Assembly: GCF_040954645.1 (NCBI RefSeq)
Contig: NC_092804.1
Location: 39,895,753-39,959,752 of the forward strand
Source: Diabrotica undecimpunctata
Lineage: Eukaryota > Arthropoda > Insecta > Coleoptera > Chrysomelidae
Direction of reading: 5' to 3'
Length of the DNA: 64,000 nt
The notes beneath the pieces are model-generated. The model was not told the origin of the DNA and searched no databases. It was given only the letters and a program-made list of their open reading frames with translations. The position numbers and the translations under genes are program-made. Of this stretch, positions 4,749 through 43,567 are shown piece by piece. Positions within the stretch are counted from its first letter, which is position 1. Each line of letters starts with the position of its first letter.

Positions 4749-6900
4749 TTAACACGTTAGTCGCCATGTGACCCGACATCTGAGTCTCAATAAAATTATA
4801 CCACCAGGCCCTGTGACCCATATATGGGCTTCACGACTTGTTATCGTTTTCGACTCTGTGAACCGCCGTCTAGTTCTTGCTTTACATTGCTTCATGTGTG
4901 ATATTAAAATAAGGGGCCTGGCCGCCCCAAGCAGCTTTTGGCCTGGGATTTTTCTATTTTTGATTCGACTGATATGCATAACAAAATATTCGCAAAAAAA
5001 CAAGTTTTCTATTAGTGTTTAATGTAATATCAGAAATTAAGTACAGCTAATTTAGGAACTGAAACATGGTATCACATGAACGTCTAAAAAATATAAACAA
5101 CTAAAAATAAGTAGAAACATTATTTTTGACACTTATGAACGTCGAAAAAACATGACAAACAGTAAAATGTGTTGCAAGCTACACAAGAAAACCTCGATTT
5201 CTTTGCCGTTAGCTGTGCTTGTTTTCGACCTTCATTACTGCAGATTTTTTCGTACCAAATAACACATCTACGGCGGTTTCTGGAGTCGGTTTCCTCTAAT
5301 GCATGCTGTTCTATGTGGCTTGTGTTTTCTACTTCCATGTAATTCAGTTTCAATAAACTCTGAACAATTTCTTCTCTGAACTCTGTTATAGATATGTGAC
5401 CTTTTGTTACCGTCTTGTAAAGAATATATGCGTTTACTATAGAAGTTCCTAGTATCAGTTCAAACACAAGCTTGCGATACCACTTGATTCCCTTCCTCAA
5501 GGGCGTAGAATACGACTTCAGTTGATCAGATAAATCAATGAACGATTTACTGTCATTGTAATCGCATATTAGTGTGGGTTTGTCAATTTCTTCACCTCGT
5601 CGTTGAACTTTGGTTGTGTTTGCTGTATGACAAGTACTCGGAGTAAGTACCTCCCGTTTGTCTTGCCACTTTAGGACAACCACTCCGTTATGTTCTCTAG
5701 CAATAACCTCTCCCTTTTTCAGCTTCTTGGTGGTCACTTCTACGAGATTGAGCTTTCTGTTTTTTCTGAGGGTGCCGACTAGGTAAGTTTCTTGTTTTAG
5801 AAGCTCCTGTGTCAAACCAACGCTAGTATAGTAATTGTCCGTAAAAAGAATCCTGCCTTGGCGAAGAAGTGGTTCCATAAGTTCGAGGACAATTTTTGTT
5901 GATGCGCTCATATTTGGATCCTTGTCATTTCTAGTGTAAATTTTCAGGTCCTATGTATATCCTCTTTTGCAACAAAGCTTGTACAGATTTATTCCGAACT
6001 TGAAATGTTTATTTTTTATATACTGTTTGAACAGTAGACGACCTCTAAATGGAACTATGCTCTCCTCTATGCAAATTTTTTGTTCCACAACATAACTTTC
6101 TTTGAGTTTGTCCATAATTAGTGTCAGCAAAGGACGTAATTTTGCAAAACGATCACCAGGAATAGCTTCTTCGTTATTGCTAAAATGCAACAAACGCAGC
6201 AGCATCTCAAAACGATTCCTGGACATCTTTCGGAAGAATTTATTTGAATACAGTGGGCTTTTTCTCCAATAATCTGTAATTTTAGGGTATTTTGCTAAGC
6301 CCATCCACAAAGAAATTGTAAAGAATGAGGTAATTTCTGCCGCATCAGTGTCTTTCCATCTATGCAATCTAGAATGCTGCGTAATTCCTTTACTGATGCT
6401 TTGTTGCGCATAACGATTTGTTTCGGTTACTATAAGATTTACTACATTTTCATTAAAGAATATTTTAAAAAAATCGACAGGGGTCTTACCCAGATAGGAT
6501 TCTCTAATCTCATCAGAGGGGCCTACGGAACCTACGGAGAAATAAAATTTCCTTAGAGATGTTCCCGTAACTGTAGACCAAGTCGCATCTTCTGTTATTA
6601 CATCAGGATCATCATTGTCCGAGTTATCGTTATCGATCGTGCAATATTTCATAACAACTGCCTCTATAGTATCTTCTACAGACAAATTTATATCCGGCGG
6701 TTGAGAAATTTCTTTGGATGTTGAAGGAATGGCTCCATCATGAACTTTTGGCTTAGAAGTCAATGAAATACTTTCTGTCCTAAAAATAACTTAGATAATA
6801 CTACGTAAAAAAATGGTAAATCATTTGTGCATACAATACAGTTAAAAAAATCCATCATATTTTTGAAGAGAAAAAATTTAAATATTACCTGTTGAATCTT
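4749..6900 (-). mobile_element. piggyBac-like DNA transposon, one end preserved
   Basis: A TTAA at 4749-4752 is followed by cacgttagtcgccatgtgac, a typical piggyBac-family terminus, and by a palindrome cccatatatggg (4816-4827) in the subterminal region. The transposase gene (5120-6779) lies on the minus strand, so this end is downstream of the gene. No matching TTAA terminus was found beyond 6780. The other end is probably lost where a LINE (from about 6910) begins, so the right boundary given is approximate. Confidence 0.6.
5120..6779 (-). pseudogene. piggyBac-family transposase, one internal stop
   Basis: This enzyme would cut and paste the element at TTAA sites by a DDD nuclease. The frame is open from 6779 to 5120 except for one TAG at 5951-5953, in GYT*DLKIYT. 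The order is: acidic N-terminus, DDE_Tnp_1_7 domain (YWRKSPLYSN, FRGRLLFKQY), second Asp in LFTDNYYTS, third Asp in DLSDQLKSYSTPLRKG, and a C-terminal Cys-rich finger (CSNEG...CVACNTFYCLSCFFDVHKC). The first catalytic Asp, normally DES before the PFRGRL block, reads EES here. No clear ATG starts the frame (an often-chosen start at 6763 is TTG). A tttttag acceptor at 6780 hints at an upstream intron. Total length of about 550 codons fits the family. One stop plus an altered catalytic residue indicate a recently dead copy. Confidence 0.85.
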
Positions 6901-8879: not shown

Positions 8880-9705
8880 ATCATTGTAGTATATCTTCTT
8901 TAGCTAATGGAACACTATCATACGCCTTTTGAAAATCAATAAATACCATGTGTGTCTCCATATTGTGTTCCAAGCGCATTTCTATTGTTTGTTTTAGACA
9001 GAACACATTATCTATATAAGAACGACCAGTACGAAAGCCACTCTGATCTTCATCGTGTTCCCAACAGTCTTCAATTCGGCTTTTAATTATCTTTCCGTAT
9101 ATTCTACAAATTGAGTAGGTTACACTAAGCGCTCGATAGTTCTTACAATTCTTTCTCTCACTTTTGTTTTTTATATATTGCTGATATATGCAGTCCATTC
9201 TTCCTCTCAAGAATAAATTAAAGGTATAAGCCAAGAGCTGAAATAGTTTCTCTGGGCCATATTTAATCAGTTCTGTGGGCCTTCCCCACAGTCCTGGAGT
9301 CTTCTCATTTTTCATAGCGTTGGCACGTTGTCAATTTCTTCTGGTGTTATTTTAGTTTCTTACATTTTTCACATTATCACATTTCACAAAAATATCACAT
9401 TTTTCATAGCCAATATCTTGGAATTTTGCTCGATCTTCTGTCAACATTTGTTCATAGTATTCGACCCATAATTCCGGGGATATTACAGTTAACCTACTGC
9501 TCCTTTTCTGGTCTCAAATTGTTTTCTAGACAGAAAATTTAAATTCAACAAAAGGAAACAATTTCAAAGTGTTTCCTTTTTTTGCCGTACCCATCTATAT
9601 CTATATCTAATTTTTGACTGTATTTACCTCTTTTTTTAATTCTTTGTTTAAACTATTATACTGTTACAGATCGCAAGGGTTCTTTATTGCTATCCTTTAT
9701 TATAC
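8880..9705 (-). pseudogene. Old minus-strand LINE-C, left part (RT N-terminus)
   Basis: Minus-strand frames give a LINE linker (WVEYYEQMLTEDRAKFQDIG, near 9440-9480), then the RT N-terminus (PTELIKYGPEKLFQLLAYTF), fingers (KNCKNYRALSVT; DQSGFRTGRSYIDNVFCLKQ) and motif A (MVFIDFQKAYDSV) at the low-coordinate end. Everything C-terminal of motif A is absent. The 5' continuation is cut by the LTR element: sequence left of 9705 continues at 13133-13165 (EDIVAKKKNMY on the minus strand) and again from 14585. This LINE is therefore the oldest layer of the nested stack. Confidence 0.75.
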
Positions 9706-9980
9706 TGTAACGAAATAGCCCATCTCCGATACGTCATAATTCTTAGAAGGACGAATCTAGAAAACGTAGGAATCGGCTTGTCAATAGCGCCCGTCTTTCG
9801 GACGGGAGACAATTAGAGGTGGGACAACGCCAGAATGTTCTCGAAAAGTAACTTTATTATATATATATATGTAACGTTGTTAGGAGTGAGTTTAGTTGAT
9901 AAGAGAGTACCGAACTGTAAACTTATAAATAAATATATGTATATAAATTCGAACCGCTCGTTTTATTTAAAAACGCTACA
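9706..9980 (+). repeat. 5' LTR
   Basis: The 275-bp LTR starts TGTAACG and ends CTACA. Inside it are a hairpin (cccgtctttcggacggg), an AT-dinucleotide run, and a TATA-like and polyadenylation-like stretch (acttataaataaatatatg) in the right third. It would supply the promoter of the element. Confidence 0.92.
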
Positions 9981-10086: not shown

Positions 10087-12846
10087 ATGCTGCTAGTACA
10101 ACTCTCAGTAAAACAGTTGCGTGAGCAGCTAGAAGAACGCGATGAAGATTGCAGCGGGTCCAAGAAGATCCTCCAAGAACGACTGAAGAATATTCTTAAC
10201 AAGAATGGAGATGACCCAGAGACATTCCATTTTCAGTCAGCAGAAGAAGCAGTTTTAATGAAGATCGAAGAGAGTTTCAGAAAAAATGATAAGAAATTTG
10301 AAAACGTCTCTCAAATGATAGAAGAATCTTCTAAAAGAGATGATAATAAATTAGAGAATGTTCCCAAAAGATTCGATGAAACATTCGAAAATGTATTTAG
10401 AAGATTCGACGAGACTTTACAAATAGTTAAAGAAATATGTATTCAAAACAATGAGAAATTTGAAGAAGTCTCAAGAACATTCGATAAAGTAGAAGAGAAG
10501 ATCAAACAATTAGAGACCATGATAAGTAACACAAAAGTGCTACCACCAGTTAATACGGTAGCCTTAGATCCGGTAGTGAAAAAAGAATCACCGAGAGACG
10601 AAATGACACATCATATGAGATTCAAATTGCCACCATTTGATGGAAAGTCCTCTTGGTCCATATACCTTAGACAATTTGAAGCTATTGCGACAGCCAATCA
10701 TTGGACAGAACAAGAAAAAGCTGTTTCCTTGACTGCTGCTTTACGAGGTGATGCTGCGGATATCCTAAGATCAATTCCTAAGGGTCAAGAAAAATGTTAC
10801 CAGACCTTGTTCACTCGACTAGATAAACGTTACGGAGATGCCCATCTACAACCAGTCTACAAAGTACAAATAAGAAGTAGAATCCAACGAGCAAGAGAGA
10901 GTTTGCAAGAATTTGAAGCAAATATTGCTCGTATAGCGCTGTTGGCCTATCCAGAGGCACCAGACAACGTTTTGGAAGAAATCGCTGTAGATGCCTTCGT
11001 CAATGGGTTAAGAGACATTGAACTACAGAAAGCTTTACGACTAGCAAGACCGAAAGTTTTAGATGAAGCGCTCGCTATTGCCTTGGAACATGAAACAGCT
11101 AGTCAAGTTTCACGGAGCTATCGAGTACGAACCTCTGAAGAGAGCGACGAACAAAACGAGAAACATCTGGAGGAAATCGTACGGAAAGTAGTTCGCAACA
11201 TGATGCCGAAGAGACACGAAACCAGATGTTCGAATGATGGCGACGTAGGTCACATTCGCCTTAAATTGCAAGAAAATAATACAACAGTCAGAAAGCTAGA
11301 ACAAATGGAACACAGGGCTGGAAAGAGTCATTCAAATGATGATGCTCAGTCAAGACGGGCATACAGTGCAAATCGTAATCATTGTCTTGAATTAGAAGAA
11401 CGACTTTGCCCCGTGAGACGAACCGCCGTCATTAATGATCAATGGCAGCCTCAACAGCTACAAGACGCTCAAGCAGATGATCCATGTATAAAAAGAGTAT
11501 TGGATTGGATGCGTCGAAGTGGAAGACCTTCTTGGCAAGACATTAGTGCATGTAGTCCAGAAGTCAAGTGTTACTGGAGCCAATGGAATTGCCTAGTGCT
11601 GAAAGATGATCTTCTGTATAGAACCTTTGAGAACGATGATGGTACAGAAACTAAGCTTCAGTTGATTGTACCTAAAAGTAAAGTGTCAGAAGTTTTACGT
11701 CAGTTGCATGACGGTTCATCAGGTGGACACTTTGGTATTACGAAGACTCTGCAAAAGGTTCGAGAACGGTTCTATTGGGTGAACTGTAAAGATGATGTAA
11801 GAAGATGGTGCCGGAAATGTGAACTGTGTGCAACCAGTAATGGTCCAGTTGGTAAAAAGAGGGCACCCATGAAACAGTACAATGTTGGTAGTCCTATGGA
11901 AAGAGTAGCAATCGACATTGCAGGTCCACTTCCAGAGACGAATGATGGAAATAAATATGATTCTCGATGCAAGAGTGAAAGCTATGAAGTAGGTGATCTT
12001 GTTTGGCTTTATAATCCACAACGTCGTCGAGGCTTGTCTCCCAAACTGCAAAGACAATGGGGAGGTCCGTATGAAATTAAAAAGAAAATAAATGACGTAA
12101 TATACCGAATTAAGAAGTTGCCGAAAGGTAAACCAAAAGTAGTTCACATAAATCGTCTTGCACCATATGCTGGTTCAAATGAAACAGAAGAAGCACGTAC
12201 CCTTCAACATAAGATCAAAGATGACCGGCGACCAAGCTTTAATGAATTTATGTCAAATTACGCAGAGAGAAAGAGTGCTAGATTCGGCGTGACCACAGAA
12301 GTTCAGCAGGATCTTTTTAGTGTTCCGCATAACGTCTCTCTAGCCCACTGTGTTGCCCAAGATCTTGAGATGACTAAAGGAATCTCATCCGTATTTTATA
12401 AGGAATTCGGTCGTTTGGACGAGTTAAAAAACCAGCAGCCTAAAGTTGGAAGAGTACTGAGATTAGAAGATGGTTCTCGATCTTTGCTGTATATGGTGAC
12501 CAGGAAGTCGTATACAGACAGGGCAAGCTACGAGGATATATGGCGTGCTCTAACTAATTTGAAGAAAATTGTGTGCAATTACGACATCAAGAATTTGGCC
12601 TTACCCAAAATAGGCCATGCATTAGATAATCTGGACTGGAAGATTGTCAGAAGCATGCTTGAAGTGATCTTCCGAGAAACCGGCGTACGAATTACTGTGT
12701 GTTGCATTAACCCGATGAGATCGTATCCTTCAAAGTCAGTAGACTGTTATTTCTTTCTAAAGGGTTCATGCAGAGCTGGAGAGTCCTGTAGATTCCGCCA
12801 TCCTGTGCCTACATATAGAGTTGCTGATCGGGACAATCAGATTTAA
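10087..12846 (+). CDS. Gag / RNase-H relic / integrase relic / macrodomain / CCCH fusion
   Basis: An intact 919-codon frame runs from an ATG 106 bases after the LTR to a TAA beside the polypurine tract. In order it encodes: a SAP-like N-terminus (about 5-40); coiled coil (55-146); Gag capsid-like region (177-345: MRFKLPPFDG, GDAADILRSIP); the tail of RNase H (407-424, MEHRAGKSHSND); an integrase HHCC finger (H541, H548, C578, C581); the first integrase Asp (D610 in VAIDIAGP); an in-frame deletion after residue 624; and the integrase C-terminal GPY domain (about 628-696). Novel additions follow. Residues 733-874 resemble a TARG1/OARD1-class macrodomain, with SLAHCVAQDLEMTKGIS, a candidate catalytic Lys at 807 (VTRKSY) and Asp at 847 (HALDNLDW). 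Then comes a CCCH finger, C887-X7-C895-X5-C901-X3-H905. A Gag particle protein is likely. ADP-ribose binding or hydrolysis is inferred from motifs only. Confidence 0.9.
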   Translation: MLLVQLSVKQLREQLEERDEDCSGSKKILQERLKNILNKNGDDPETFHFQSAEEAVLMKIEESFRKNDKKFENVSQMIEESSKRDDNKLENVPKRFDETFENVFRRFDETLQIVKEICIQNNEKFEEVSRTFDKVEEKIKQLETMISNTKVLPPVNTVALDPVVKKESPRDEMTHHMRFKLPPFDGKSSWSIYLRQFEAIATANHWTEQEKAVSLTAALRGDAADILRSIPKGQEKCYQTLFTRLDKRYGDAHLQPVYKVQIRSRIQRARESLQEFEANIARIALLAYPEAPDNVLEEIAVDAFVNGLRDIELQKALRLARPKVLDEALAIALEHETASQVSRSYRVRTSEESDEQNEKHLEEIVRKVVRNMMPKRHETRCSNDGDVGHIRLKLQENNTTVRKLEQMEHRAGKSHSNDDAQSRRAYSANRNHCLELEERLCPVRRTAVINDQWQPQQLQDAQADDPCIKRVLDWMRRSGRPSWQDISACSPEVKCYWSQWNCLVLKDDLLYRTFENDDGTETKLQLIVPKSKVSEVLRQLHDGSSGGHFGITKTLQKVRERFYWVNCKDDVRRWCRKCELCATSNGPVGKKRAPMKQYNVGSPMERVAIDIAGPLPETNDGNKYDSRCKSESYEVGDLVWLYNPQRRRGLSPKLQRQWGGPYEIKKKINDVIYRIKKLPKGKPKVVHINRLAPYAGSNETEEARTLQHKIKDDRRPSFNEFMSNYAERKSARFGVTTEVQQDLFSVPHNVSLAHCVAQDLEMTKGISSVFYKEFGRLDELKNQQPKVGRVLRLEDGSRSLLYMVTRKSYTDRASYEDIWRALTNLKKIVCNYDIKNLALPKIGHALDNLDWKIVRSMLEVIFRETGVRITVCCINPMRSYPSKSVDCYFFLKGSCRAGESCRFRHPVPTYRVADRDNQI

Positions 12847-12857: not shown

Positions 12858-13132
12858 TGTAACGAAATAGCCCATCTCCGATACGTCATAATTCTTAGAA
12901 GGACGAATCTAGAAAACGTAGGAATCGGCTTGTCAATAGCGCCCGTCTTTCGGACGGGAGACAATTAGAGGTGGGACAACGCCAGAATGTTCTCGAAAAG
13001 TAACTTTATTATATATATATATGTAACGTTGTTAGGAGTGAGTTTAGTTGATAAGAGAGTACCGAACTGTAAACTTATAAATAAATATATGTATATAAAT
13101 TCGAACCGCTCGTTTTATTTAATCACGCTACA
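12858..13132 (+). repeat. 3' LTR
   Basis: This LTR is identical to the 5' LTR except that two adjacent A bases near the right end read TC here. It has the same 275-bp length and is followed directly by the target duplication atac. Confidence 0.92.
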
Positions 13133-13165
13133 ATACATATTCTTCTTCTTAGCCACAATATCTTC

Positions 13166-14584
13166 AATGAAAAAAACATAGATCTTTTAGTCCAACTACT
13201 GAACACAATCGATTCCACAGGAATCATTCCACGTGAAATGCTGACATTTATTTGTCTACCAAAGAAAGTAAATGCCAAAGAATGTAGTGATTATCGAACG
13301 ATCAGTCTAATGTCATATACCTTAAAAACCCTGCTAAAAATCATCCATAATAGAATACACGCTAAGCTGGAGATGGATATTAGTGATTCCCAATTTGGAT
13401 TTCGGAATAGAATGGGCACAAGAGAGGCACTATTTTCTTTTAACGTGCTGACCCAAAGATGTTTGGATGTTAATCGAGATCTTTATGTATGCTTTATAGA
13501 CTACAACAAGGCATTCGATAAGGTAAAACATGAACGACTTATAGAAGTACTCAAAAACAAGAATCTGGATGTGAGTAATGTAACATTGATATCAAATTTA
13601 TACTATAGCCAACGATCAAATGTGAACATTGGAAGAGAAGTGTCAGAAGAAGTGGAGATAAGGAGAGGGGTCAGGCAAGGTTTCATACTGTCGCCGTTAT
13701 TGTTTAATGCTTACTCTGAAGAAATCATACAAGAAGCTTTGGTGAACGAGACAGTCGGCATAAAAGTGAACGGAAGTTTAATTAACAACATTAGGTATGC
13801 CGACGATACAGTCATAATAGCTGACAACTTGGAAGACTTAGAAAAAGTAATGAACAAAATATTAAGATATAGTGGAGAATACTGACTTGCTCAACATCAA
13901 AAAAACCAAATTCATGAAAATTAGCAAGAACAACAATACAAACGAAATATTAACGGTAGGCGGCCAGCAGATTGAGAGAGTAAAAAGATATACTTACTTG
14001 GGAACGATAATCACAGAAAATAACGATTATACTGCAGAAATAAGAGTCAGAAATGAAAAAGCACGTGCCAACTTCGTCAAAATGAAAAAGATTTTATGCA
14101 GCAAAGATCTGACATTGGCCCTCAGAATAAGGCTAGTTAAATGCTATGTACACAGTGTACTCTACTATGGAGCTGAATTATGGACATTAAACCGGAATAC
14201 AATAAATCGACTTAACGCGTTTGAAATGTGGACATTTAGAAGATTGTTATAGGATTCCATGGGTAGATAGAATCACGAATACAGAAGTGTTAAGGAGAAT
14301 AGGCAGAGAGAGGGAAATGGAAAATACAATAAAAGAAAGGAAATTGCAATATCTCGGATATGTGATGAGAGGCGAAAGATACAACATCTTGAGACTCATA
14401 ATTCAAGGAAAAGTAGAGGGTAGGAGAAGCGTAGGAAGAAGACGCGTTTCCTGGTTGAAGAACCTGAGAAAGTGGTTTGGTTGCAGCTCAAGGCAATTGT
14501 TCAGAGCAGCTGCCTCAAAGGTCAGAATAGCCATGATGATTGCCAACCTTCGTCGCGAAGATGGCACTTAAAGAAGAAGATGAA
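13166..14584 (+). pseudogene. LINE-A copy 1, 5'-truncated reverse transcriptase
   Basis: Plus-strand RT remnant: fingers (CSDYRTISLMSYTLK, SQFGFRNRMGTREALF), motif A (CFIDYNKAFDKV), motif B (GVRQGFILSPLLFN), catalytic RYADDTVIIA, then post-RT blocks (YTYLGTIITENNDYTAEIR; FEMWTFRRLL) and the C-terminus WLKNLRKWFGCSS...ANLRREDGT. Two frameshifts (near 13880 and 14240) break it, and the endonuclease half is missing. It ends in an aagaagaagatgaa tail. The flanks gccacaatatcttc (13152-13165) and gctacaatatcttc (14585-14598) match at 13 of 14 bases, a target-site duplication, so this copy inserted into LINE-C. Confidence 0.85.
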
Positions 14585-29310: not shown

Positions 29311-30037
29311 TTCAAAGTCTCAATATATACTGTAACAGTTAAGGCTTGAAAATTAATTTGAAAAAAACTAAATTTATGGTAATCACGAAATCAAAGAACA
29401 TCAGAGCTAATCTTGTAATAGACAATACAACGATTGAGCGTGTGTCCTGTTATAAATATCTAGGTGCTTGGATCACAGACGATACTGATCAAACAAAAGA
29501 GATTAGATGTAAAATAGAAATCGCTAGATCAGTCTTTAATAGAATGCGCAAACTCTTTTGCAATCGTGATATCAATATAAAGTTACGAATACGAATGCTG
29601 CGGTGTTATGTCTTTTCTACCCTGTTGTATGGAGTAGAGGCTTGGACACTAAAACAGTTGACCACAAAAAACATCGAAGCTTTCGAGATGTGGTGCTATA
29701 GGCGCATTCTCAGAATATCATGGATGGACCGCGTCAGTAACACGCAAGTACTCCAAACTTTAGACAAAAGATGCGAAATTCTAAATGAGATAAAAACTAG
29801 AAAGATGGAATACTTGGGGCACATTGTGAGAGGTGAAAAGTACGAACTTTTAAGAAATATCATGCAGGGCAAAATTAAGGGCAAAAGAAGTGTGGGAAGA
29901 AGAAAATGATCGTGGCTTCGTAATCTACGTGAATGGTTCGGGTGTAGTTCGATTGAACTTTTTAGGCGCGCTGCTAACAAAGTCGCAGTGGCCATGATGA
30001 TTTCCAATCTCCGCTAGGAGTGGCACGAGAAGAAGAA
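29311..30037 (+). pseudogene. LINE-A relative, post-RT half
   Basis: The open frame 29346-29909 encodes INLKKTKFMVITKSKN, ERVSCYKYLGAWITDD, CYVFSTLLYGVEAWTL, FEMWCYRRILRISWMDRV and YLGHIVRGEKYELLRNIMQG. A TGA at about 29907 is followed in frame by WLRNLREWFGCSS and MMISNLR. It ends in an agaagaagaagaa tail. Flanks near 29296 (aacaaacatctcgtt) and 30038 (aacaaatatctcatt) are a possible imperfect target duplication. Apart from the TGA this half is intact. Confidence 0.82.
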
Positions 30038-36768: not shown

Positions 36769-38110
36769 GATTCTTCTTCTTATTCAGGTGCCATCTCCGC
36801 TACGGAGGTTGGCAATCATCATAGCTACTTTAATTTTTGAGGCAGTAGCTCTAAATAGTCGTTATGAGTCGCAGGATGCCATACTTCTCGCCCTGCATTA
36901 CATGTCCGAGATACTGTAGCTTTATTTCTTTAATTGTAAGTTCAACTTCCTCCTCTTTACCTATTCTTCTCAGTACTTCATTGTTCGTAACTCTATCTAC
37001 CCAGGAAACCCTCAAAATTTTTCTATAGGTCCACATTTCAAAGGCGTTAAGTCGTCTCATTATGTCTAGATTTAACGTCCATGATTCCACTCCATAGTAT
37101 AGTACATTGTATACGTAACATTTTGTTAGGCGTACTTTAAGAGCTAATCTTGAATCTTTGCCACATATGACCTTTTTCATTTTCATAAAATTAGAACGTG
37201 CTTTTTCGATTCTGACTTTGATTTCTGCAGTGTAGTCATTATTTTCTGTTATAAGTGTTCCTAGGTAAGTGTACTTTATTATTCTTTCGATCTGCTGGCC
37301 CTCTACTATCAAGATTTCGTTAGTATTATGGTTGTTTTTACAAATTTTCATAAACTTCATCTTTCCAGGTCTTGTAAACTATCGGCTATTATTACTGTAT
37401 CATCTGCATATCTGATGTTGTTAACCAAGACTCCATTTACTCTTATGCCGACTGTTTCATCTTCCAGAGTTTCTTGAATTACCTCTTCAGAATAACCGTT
37501 AAATAATAGAGGTGATGGTATGCAGCCTTGCCTGACTCTTCTCTTTATTTCCATTTCTTCAGATGTCTCTTTTTCAATTCGTACTATTGCTCGCTGATTG
37601 TAATAAAGGTTTGTTATTAGCCTTAAATTTCTTTCATCTAGGTTTTTATTTTTTAGAATTTCCATGAGTCGGTCATGTTTTACTTTATCAAACGCTTTAT
37701 TGTAGTCTACAAAACAGACGTAAAGAGGACTGTTAACATCCAAACATCTCTGCGTCATCCCGTTGAAGGAGAATAGTGCCTCTCTGGTACCCATACCATT
37801 GCGGAACCCATATTGTGTGTCACTAATATCCAGCTTCAGTTTAGAGTGAATTCTGGCGTGGATAATTTTCAACAGAATTTTCAAGGTATGTGACATTAAG
37901 CTTATGGTTCGATAGTCACTGCACTCTTTGGCATTCACTTTCTTTGGCAAACACACAAATGCTGATGTCAACATTTCTCTAGGGATGATGTCCAGGTTTT
38001 TCTCGTTGACCAACTTTAATAGCTCTCTTGGCAATTCATCTGGACCAGCAGATTTAGTGGTTTTCATTGAGTTTAATGCCTGATTAGCCTCTGATTTGGT
38101 TTGGTTTGGT
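36769..38110 (-). pseudogene. LINE-A copy, minus strand
   Basis: Open frame 38067-37360 holds the RT: SAGPDELPRELLKLVNEKN, CSDYRTISLMSHTLKILLK, QYGFRNGMGTREALFSF, CFVDYNKAFDKVKHD, a motif B (VRQGCIPSPLLFN), and RYADDTVIIADSLQDL. After a frameshift, 37360-36851 gives the post-RT region (YTYLGTLITENNDYTAEIK; MWTYRKILRVSWVDRV; YLGHVMQGEKYGILRL). About 30 codons (QGK...WFGCSS) are deleted before the C-terminal MMIANL. The tail is GAA-type at the low-coordinate end (36769-36778). It inserted into the LINE whose halves flank it. It resembles copy 1 (13166-14584) closely. Confidence 0.85.
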
Positions 38111-42030: not shown

Positions 42031-43567
42031 GTCAATTGTAAAATGCCACCATTTACAGTCGAAGAAGTAATATGCCATCAAAAGCACCAAAGATGGTAAA
42101 GCAGTAGGCCCTGATAATTTTCACTCAGAATTCTTAAAACTTATGGACTATGATGGCGTAAAATGGTTGACAAATATATTTAACAGTATATATGATACGG
42201 GCGTGGTTCCCCAAGAGTGGTTAGTGTCAACTTTTATAAATCTTCCAAAAAAAACCAATGCGAGAAAGTGCGAAGACTATAGAATTATAAGCCTTATGAG
42301 CCATTTACTTAAAACATTTCTAAAGGTCATTCACAAAAGAATATATACAAAATGTGAGGAACAACTAACAAGAACACAATTCGGATTTCGTGATGCTCTG
42401 GGAACACGGGAGGCCCTTTTTGCTGTACAGGTGCTATTTCAGAGATGCAGGGATGTGAATTGTGACATATACGTATGCTTTATAGATTACCAGAAGGCAT
42501 TTGACGGAGTAAAACATGAAAAATTAATGACTCTAATGCAAGAAATTGGAATTGACAACAAAAATCTTAGAATTATCAGAAACATTTACTACAATCAAAC
42601 GGCCAAAATCAAAATAGAAGACCAGTTAACTGATAAAATTGCAATAAAACGTGGAGTACGACAGGGCTGTATTTTGTCTCCATTGTTGTTCAATATTTAT
42701 TCTGAATGGGTATTTAAGGAAGCTTTAGACGGTTGTGCGAAAGGAATACTAATAAACGGTGAATGGTTGAATAACATTAGATATGCAGATGACACTATAG
42801 TTTTTGCCGATAATCTGAATGACTTACAGATAGTAACAAATCGCATAAAAGAAGTCAGCAACAGATACGGACTAGCTCTTAACATAAAGAAAACCAAATT
42901 TATGACAATTAGTAAAAAACCAATACTAAACGCTCAACTTACAATCAACCAACAGAATATCGAAAGAGTCGAGCAATATACATATCTAGGCACCAATTTA
43001 AATAGCCAATGGGATCACTCAACAGAAATTAAACAGCCAATAATAAAAGCAAAAGCAGCATTCGTTAGAATGAGAACCATCTTCAACAGTCGAGACATAT
43101 CATTAAAAACAAAATGCCGTCTATTGAACTGCTACATATTCACAGTTCTGCTCTACGGAATGGAAGCATGGACACTGACTGTTGCATCTATGAATCGACT
43201 CGAAGCTTTCGAAATGTGGTGTTATAGGCGAATCTTACGTATATCCTGGGTTGACAGAGTTACTAATGTGGAGGTCCTGCGTAGAATGGGGAAAGAATGT
43301 GAAATTCTTATGACCGTCAAAACTAAAAAGTTGGAATATCTAGGACATGTAATGAGAAATCAAGAACGTTACGGCCTTCTCCAGCTGATTCTCCAAGGGA
43401 AAGTAAATGGTAAGAGAGAACCGGGAAGAAGACGCATTTCCTAGCTTCAAAATTTACGAAAGTGGTATAACACGACTACCACTGAACTGTTCCGCGCTGC
43501 AATAAACAAAGTAAAGATAGTCGTGATGATCGCCAACATCCGGAACGGATAGGCACTTTAAGAAGAA
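42031..43567 (+). pseudogene. LINE-A copy with nearly intact RT
   Basis: This is the best preserved LINE reverse transcriptase of the window. The frame is open from before ATG 42143 to a TAG at about 43442, then continues in frame (LQNLRKWYNTTTTELFRAA; VMIANIRNG) to the end, so only one stop interrupts it. Counting from 42143: fingers (TQFGFRDALGTREALF), motif A (CFIDYQKAFDGV, Asp 115), motif B (RGVRQGCILSPLLFN), YADD at 214-217, thumb and post-RT (YTYLGTNLNSQWD; FEMWCYRRILRISWVDRVTN; YLGHVMRNQERYGLL), then GRRRIS before the TAG. The endonuclease half is missing. The tail is aagaagaagga. An 8-bp ggatacta occurs at both flanks (about 42020 and 43568). Confidence 0.88.

Follow-up and report, generated by a model that had tools for sequence, protein, structure and literature searches.

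A TARG1-class macrodomain and a CCCH finger behind the integrase of a Diabrotica Ty3/gypsy-type retrotransposon, with arginine in the catalytic lysine column

Results

Structure of the window element

A stretch of 64,000 nucleotides from the beetle Diabrotica undecimpunctata (NC_092804.1, positions 39,895,753–39,959,752; hereafter the window) contains a long terminal repeat (LTR) retrotransposon with a TARG1/OARD1-class macrodomain encoded downstream of integrase sequences. Its 5′ LTR (9706–9980, forward strand; 275 bp, TGTA...TACA) is directly preceded by ATAC, and the 3′ LTR (12858–13132, forward) matches it at 99.3% identity with two mismatches. The 4-bp target-site duplication is ATAC, at 9702–9705 and 13133–13136. 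Between the LTRs lies a forward-strand frame of 919 codons (10087–12846), in which Gag, integrase, macrodomain and CCCH finger are fused in a deletion derivative of a longer element.

Pfam domains in this frame are SAP (residues 5–35), Retrotrans_gag (217–310; the Gag core, 10735–11016), the integrase zinc-binding domain Integrase_H2C2 (528–585; 11668–11841, E 5.5e-21), the integrase C-terminal domain Integrase_p58_C (660–693; 12064–12165, E 1e-12) and a CCCH finger (883–906), all on the forward strand. The finger (C887-C895-C901-H905; 12733–12804) was matched by zf-CCCH on the tail with E 7.7e-6 and 26.1 bits against a Pfam cut-off of 20.5, and its Cys-Cys-Cys-His ligands are spaced as in that family. 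Gag also has a Pfam match to DUF1759 (residues 185–252), a family known from BEL/Pao elements. The macrodomain occupies residues 732–874 (12280–12708, forward) and thus stands, as the initial annotation had it, between integrase and the 3′ LTR.

Comparison by blastn with the full-length genomic copies L010 and L017 located two deletions, neither of which, like the CCCH finger, had been noticed initially. The first junction (11302–11305, forward) marks the loss of about 2.1 kb encoding protease, reverse transcriptase (RT) and RNase H, and the second (11932–11958, forward) the loss of about 0.56 kb encoding the integrase catalytic core, rve; all of these domains were found in L017 by domain search. 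Together the deletions are net in frame relative to L010, and both spare the macrodomain and CCCH finger. We class the window copy as a member of a non-autonomous subfamily, since three other copies (L025, L026 and L027) align with it unbroken over both junctions.

The family in the Diabrotica genome

The 1.74-Gb genome was searched with three queries, and for each the best 150 first-look candidates were scored: of 6161 with the tail, of 5345 with the distant protein P0007 and of 17013 with RT, figures that are not copy numbers. Among the best 150 of the 6161 tail matches, frames of 1413–1414 codons occurred 40 times, of 1855–1857 codons six times and of 921 codons 19 times. The family is abundant in Diabrotica, and the claim that the macrodomain is not confined to one copy is borne out by many other genomic copies and by proteins of other beetles.

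In full-length L017, a Gag that includes a CCHC knuckle is accompanied by protease, RT, RNase H, integrase and the CCCH finger, the macrodomain lying within the last 200 codons; its pieces follow in the order gag-asp_proteas, RVT_1, RT_RNaseH, Integrase_H2C2 and rve. From the LTR pair, the target-site duplication, Gag and the Pol order protease-RT-RNase H-integrase, we assign the family to the Ty3/gypsy type of LTR retrotransposons. Among 16 copies picked for long frames (L009–L024), the LTR pairs are identical in 13 and 97.7–99.7% identical in the other three, the aligned LTR of L015 being only 188 bp. The macrodomain is encoded within pol, downstream of integrase, and no sense-strand frame of at least 200 codons other than gag and pol was listed for these 16 copies.

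Two coding layouts occur in these close relatives: a single frame of 1810–1857 codons in L009–L016, and Gag plus a Pol of 1413–1414 codons in L017–L024, with Gag and Pol in different, mostly overlapping frames. L017 and L018 have an intact Gag knuckle, but cysteines of the knuckle are replaced in the window, in L010 (one-frame layout) and in L026 and L027; the latter four all retain the CCCH finger. Gag repeats at a 75-bp offset, about 87% alike, were seen in L018 (1241–1530) and L019 (1272–1561).

Identity of the macrodomain and its catalytic columns

By both sequence and fold the closest macrodomains are TARG1 and DarG, so that the initial assignment of a TARG1/OARD1-class macrodomain to an insect LTR element holds, and we regard this domain identity as near certain. 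Residues 15–155 of the model run along TARG1 12–152 (141 aligned residues), and three alignments agree on the register. In this register TARG1 Lys84 corresponds to Arg806 (12502–12504), Lys85 to Lys807 (12505–12507), Gly123 to Ala845 and Asp125 to Asp847 (12625–12627; codons on the forward strand). Lys807 and Asp847 had been taken to fill both catalytic positions. The aspartate does; the lysine, however, is the neighbour of the catalytic column, which holds arginine.

This arginine is present in every one of the 105 Diabrotica copies read, namely in 65 of 65 distinct macrodomain-picked copies (including the window, and leaving out the duplicates L002, L007 and L008 as well as L001, which is the window’s own locus), and in all 20 copies of each of two further sets, one picked with P0007 and the other by RT. 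At position 807, 92 of the 105 have Lys and the remaining 13 have Arg. Asp847 and the four CCCH ligands are each kept in 104 of the 104 copies with letters there, and the Gly123 column is Ala in the genomic copies read. In the protein database, all seven Diabrotica sequences, the window among them, likewise have Arg in the Lys84 column. The window has Asp in the Asp125 column, whereas the other six (P0001–P0005 and P0030) have Glu (five) or Val (one); one of the six carries the name D. undecimpunctata. Because of these six sequences, we take Diabrotica subfamilies outside the 105 copies to differ at Asp125.

A different picture is given by proteins from outside Diabrotica that have a CCCH motif or an integrase C-terminal domain. 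Lys stands in the Lys84 column in all 16 that have a letter there (P0033 and P0091 have none), seven of the 16 being from named beetles, and Asp stands in the Asp125 column in 14 of 16, P0012 and P0017 having a shortened loop. In TARG1, K84A abolishes rescue from DarT toxicity, as does K80A in DarG (PMC8501950). Since the catalytic lysine column is Arg and these substitutions abolish rescue, hydrolysis by the TARG1 route is unlikely for the Diabrotica domain, and removal of ADP-ribose from acidic residues is predicted to be absent in the genus; for the non-Diabrotica element domains the TARG1 route is plausible. In addition, TARG1 Gly123 lines the ADP-ribose site, and G123E stops binding (PMC5928194).

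Selection on the module

Over the 16 long-frame copies, the ratio of non-synonymous to synonymous polymorphism (pN/pS) was 0.11 for the macrodomain, 0.10 for RT, 0.06 for the RNase H stretch and 0.02 for the integrase zinc-binding/core part, with higher values for the CCCH tail (0.34), the protease side (0.52) and the integrase C-terminal stretch (0.65). Since macrodomain similarity had guided the choice of these copies, the test was run again on copies picked by RT, of which 20 were read out of 40 picked. In all 20 the macrodomain stands at the expected distance, and no in-frame stop occurs in any of them when read in the window’s columns.

In the macrodomain of these 20 copies, variants private to one copy comprised five synonymous and 17 non-synonymous changes (ratio 0.95), and variants present in at least two copies nine and six (0.19). 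Over all 105 copies the corresponding counts were 16 and 59 for singletons (1.03) and 28 and 20 for shared variants (0.20), where counts are of variants rather than events and the best-matching copies are young. For the tail after the macrodomain, again over all copies, the ratios were 0.66 for single-copy and 0.48 for shared variants. Thus, private changes look neutral and transmitted ones are constrained: the macrodomain is under purifying selection.

Relatives and origin of the domain

Of 2152 candidates in a profile search of the protein database, 90 proteins scored E ≤ 0.001. Relatives bearing the CCCH motif were found, beside Diabrotica, in the longhorn beetles Aromia and Molorchus and in the leaf and seed beetles Gonioctena, Leptinotarsa and Acanthoscelides. 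An integrase C-terminal domain lies upstream of the macrodomain in six non-Diabrotica proteins (P0006, P0010, P0012, P0016, P0017 and P0019), four of which have the CCCH motif. A TARG1-class macrodomain and a CCCH finger form a C-terminal extension of integrase in this Ty3/gypsy-type family, an arrangement that other beetles share in their proteins.

An 88-row tree groups the element macrodomains with their nearest rows in a single set of 26 (support 100/91), consisting of 21 pre-labelled rows, P0024 and P0027 (both with CCCH), P0030 (Diabrotica) and two Nilaparvata rows. The element label as first set required four changes on this tree because of the five unlabelled rows inside the set. A second, smaller tree placed all 17 labelled rows, which now included Aquatica (a firefly) and Nilaparvata (a planthopper), on one side of a branch with support 99/98.

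The host’s own OARD1-like gene (C3:100934209-100934598; 49% identity to human OARD1) has the motifs ITKKK and GCGLD and keeps both the catalytic Lys and Asp. It lies across the branch from the element domains and groups weakly (94/59) with an OARD1-like protein of Aromia. Its macrodomain sits in a frame of 760 codons, far longer than human OARD1. The initial proposal that an element captured a host hydrolase-like domain is sound as to the class of the domain, but the present host’s gene does not appear to be the source. We conclude from the trees and the database proteins that the element macrodomain is not derived from that gene, because it is common to longhorn and other leaf beetle proteins and stands apart from the host gene. 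A single old capture of an ancestrally hydrolase-competent domain is our best reading; the distribution fits either one capture predating the split of these beetle lineages or a capture plus horizontal transfer.

Two further observations were made among the database proteins. P0038 (295 amino acids, on an environmental contig of 1450 bases) departs from this arrangement: its TARG1-class macrodomain comes after a retroelement RNase H, with no integrase domain between them. It keeps the Lys and GCGLD, its tree position is unsure, and it is possibly a second capture. Records such as P0002, P0003, P0004 and P0012, named ADP-ribose glycohydrolase OARD1-like or uncharacterized, resemble pieces of the element, which suggests that several ‘OARD1-like’ beetle gene models may be element fragments.

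Other features of the window

Four fragments resemble non-LTR retrotransposon proteins by eye (13238–14571, 29346–29909, 36851–38067 and 42143–43444). Three of them have a YADD motif, and one directly adjoins the 3′ LTR. Two adjacent frames at 5120–6763, on the reverse strand, resemble by eye a broken piggyBac-type transposase.

Discussion

Our tentative preference is that the Diabrotica module acts as a non-hydrolysing ADP-ribose reader on the integration complex. The ancestral module would have bound and hydrolysed ADP-ribose on acidic residues or nucleic acid, and in Diabrotica this eraser would have turned into a reader. Its targets would be ADP-ribosylated chromatin or PARP-modified proteins at DNA breaks, the CCCH finger would contact nucleic acid, and the outcome would be easier docking of the integration complex or shielding from PARP-1-dependent repression. 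Chromoviruses carry a chromodomain at the integrase C-terminus, the position taken here by the macrodomain and CCCH finger. We favour a reader because TARG1 is recruited to poly(ADP-ribose) chains upon DNA damage and is an RNA-binding macrodomain (PMC5928194), and because most of the affected mobile elements go up in parp-1 null Drosophila, for which the authors allow an indirect route (PMC7712786).

Several observations weigh against this preference. Ala at the Gly123 column and Glu or Val at Asp125 in the six database sequences may mean that ADP-ribose binding is weakened, in which case selection may act on the binding of RNA or protein instead. The CCCH tail and the integrase C-terminal stretch are under weaker constraint than RT, and among the RT-picked copies the reading frame of the tail is shifted by gaps in L091, L094 and L098, and L093 is truncated. 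Furthermore, the Aquatica and Nilaparvata proteins within the element clade lack a CCCH motif, nor was an integrase domain listed for either.

Were the module a working hydrolase, it could overcome PARP-based restriction, as viral macrodomains do, by stripping ADP-ribose from the RNA, DNA or proteins of the element. The fold and class are those of ADP-ribosyl hydrolases, the non-Diabrotica members mostly keep both catalytic residues, and the Drosophila data fit such a defence; however, arginine occupies the lysine column in all Diabrotica copies, recent ones among them, and, given the K84A effect, a hydrolase of the TARG1 mechanism cannot be the Diabrotica function unless Arg works. We therefore consider counter-defence rather unlikely. 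Also unlikely, and slightly more so, is that macrodomain and finger bind element RNA or cDNA for packaging or as a chaperone, with ADP-ribose irrelevant. RNA binding by TARG1 itself, the invariant CCCH ligands, and the finger’s retention in all four copies with an altered Gag knuckle speak for it, but the shared-variant ratio of the tail is well above that of the macrodomain, and the hydrolase residues kept outside Diabrotica would not be needed for RNA binding alone.

That the module mattered in other beetles and is now losing its function in Diabrotica would explain the replacement of Lys84 by Arg in seven of seven database sequences and of Asp125 by Glu or Val in six of seven, as well as the change of Gly123 to Ala. 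Such decay is improbable, given that the copies read show no variation at Arg806, Asp847 or the zinc ligands and that the macrodomain is about as constrained as RT. A functionless host fragment, carried along since the elements are young, would account for the neutral look of private variants (ratio about 1) and for the tail gaps in three of 20 RT-picked copies, but not for the strongly synonymous shared variants, the occurrence of the module in both leaf and longhorn beetle proteins, or its sparing by both deletions in the window derivative; already disfavoured on these grounds, it is very improbable.

Compared with TARG1/OARD1 (C6orf130), the element domain differs at Lys84 and Gly123 and in its fusion to an integrase and a CCCH finger within a mobile element. 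Chromatin readers fused to Gypsy integrases (PMC12477816, PMC2864245) are likewise foreign binding domains, but the domain here is of an ADP-ribose-binder class rather than a histone-mark reader. The initial annotation knew of no retrotransposon of this kind. In the part of the literature covered by our search, no TARG1-type macrodomain or macrodomain-CCCH tail on a retrotransposon integrase was described; more broadly, retroelements with macro or NADAR domains are already known. NADAR, a domain of ADP-ribose/NAD chemistry, was likewise acquired by Gypsy Pol of the alga Ectocarpus and by ORF1 of an oyster Tx1 LINE (PMC12477816), and fish epsilon-like endogenous retroviruses, also LTR retroelements, carry macrodomain open reading frames (Basta et al. 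2009, as cited in PMC4977317). In the latter the macrodomain is described as an additional frame of a retrovirus, whereas here it lies inside pol, downstream of integrase. Insect-restricted alphaviruses similarly have a macrodomain with catalytic residues lost (PMC7729036), but theirs is nsP3-type and belongs to a positive-strand RNA virus.

The reader could be taken one step further: a captured host eraser may, in corn rootworms, have become a pseudo-enzyme through which integrase is anchored on ADP-ribosylated chromatin at DNA breaks or PARP-1-active loci. We offer this as speculation that is itself unlikely. If true, it would amount to chromodomain-like targeting that reads ADP-ribose in place of histone methylation, and ADP-ribosylation, familiar mainly from DNA repair and viral conflict, would enter the life cycle of an abundant retrotransposon. 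Proteins of longhorn and other leaf beetles have the captured module with the catalytic lysine, Diabrotica has the same module without it, and this natural pair makes the question of eraser versus reader testable.
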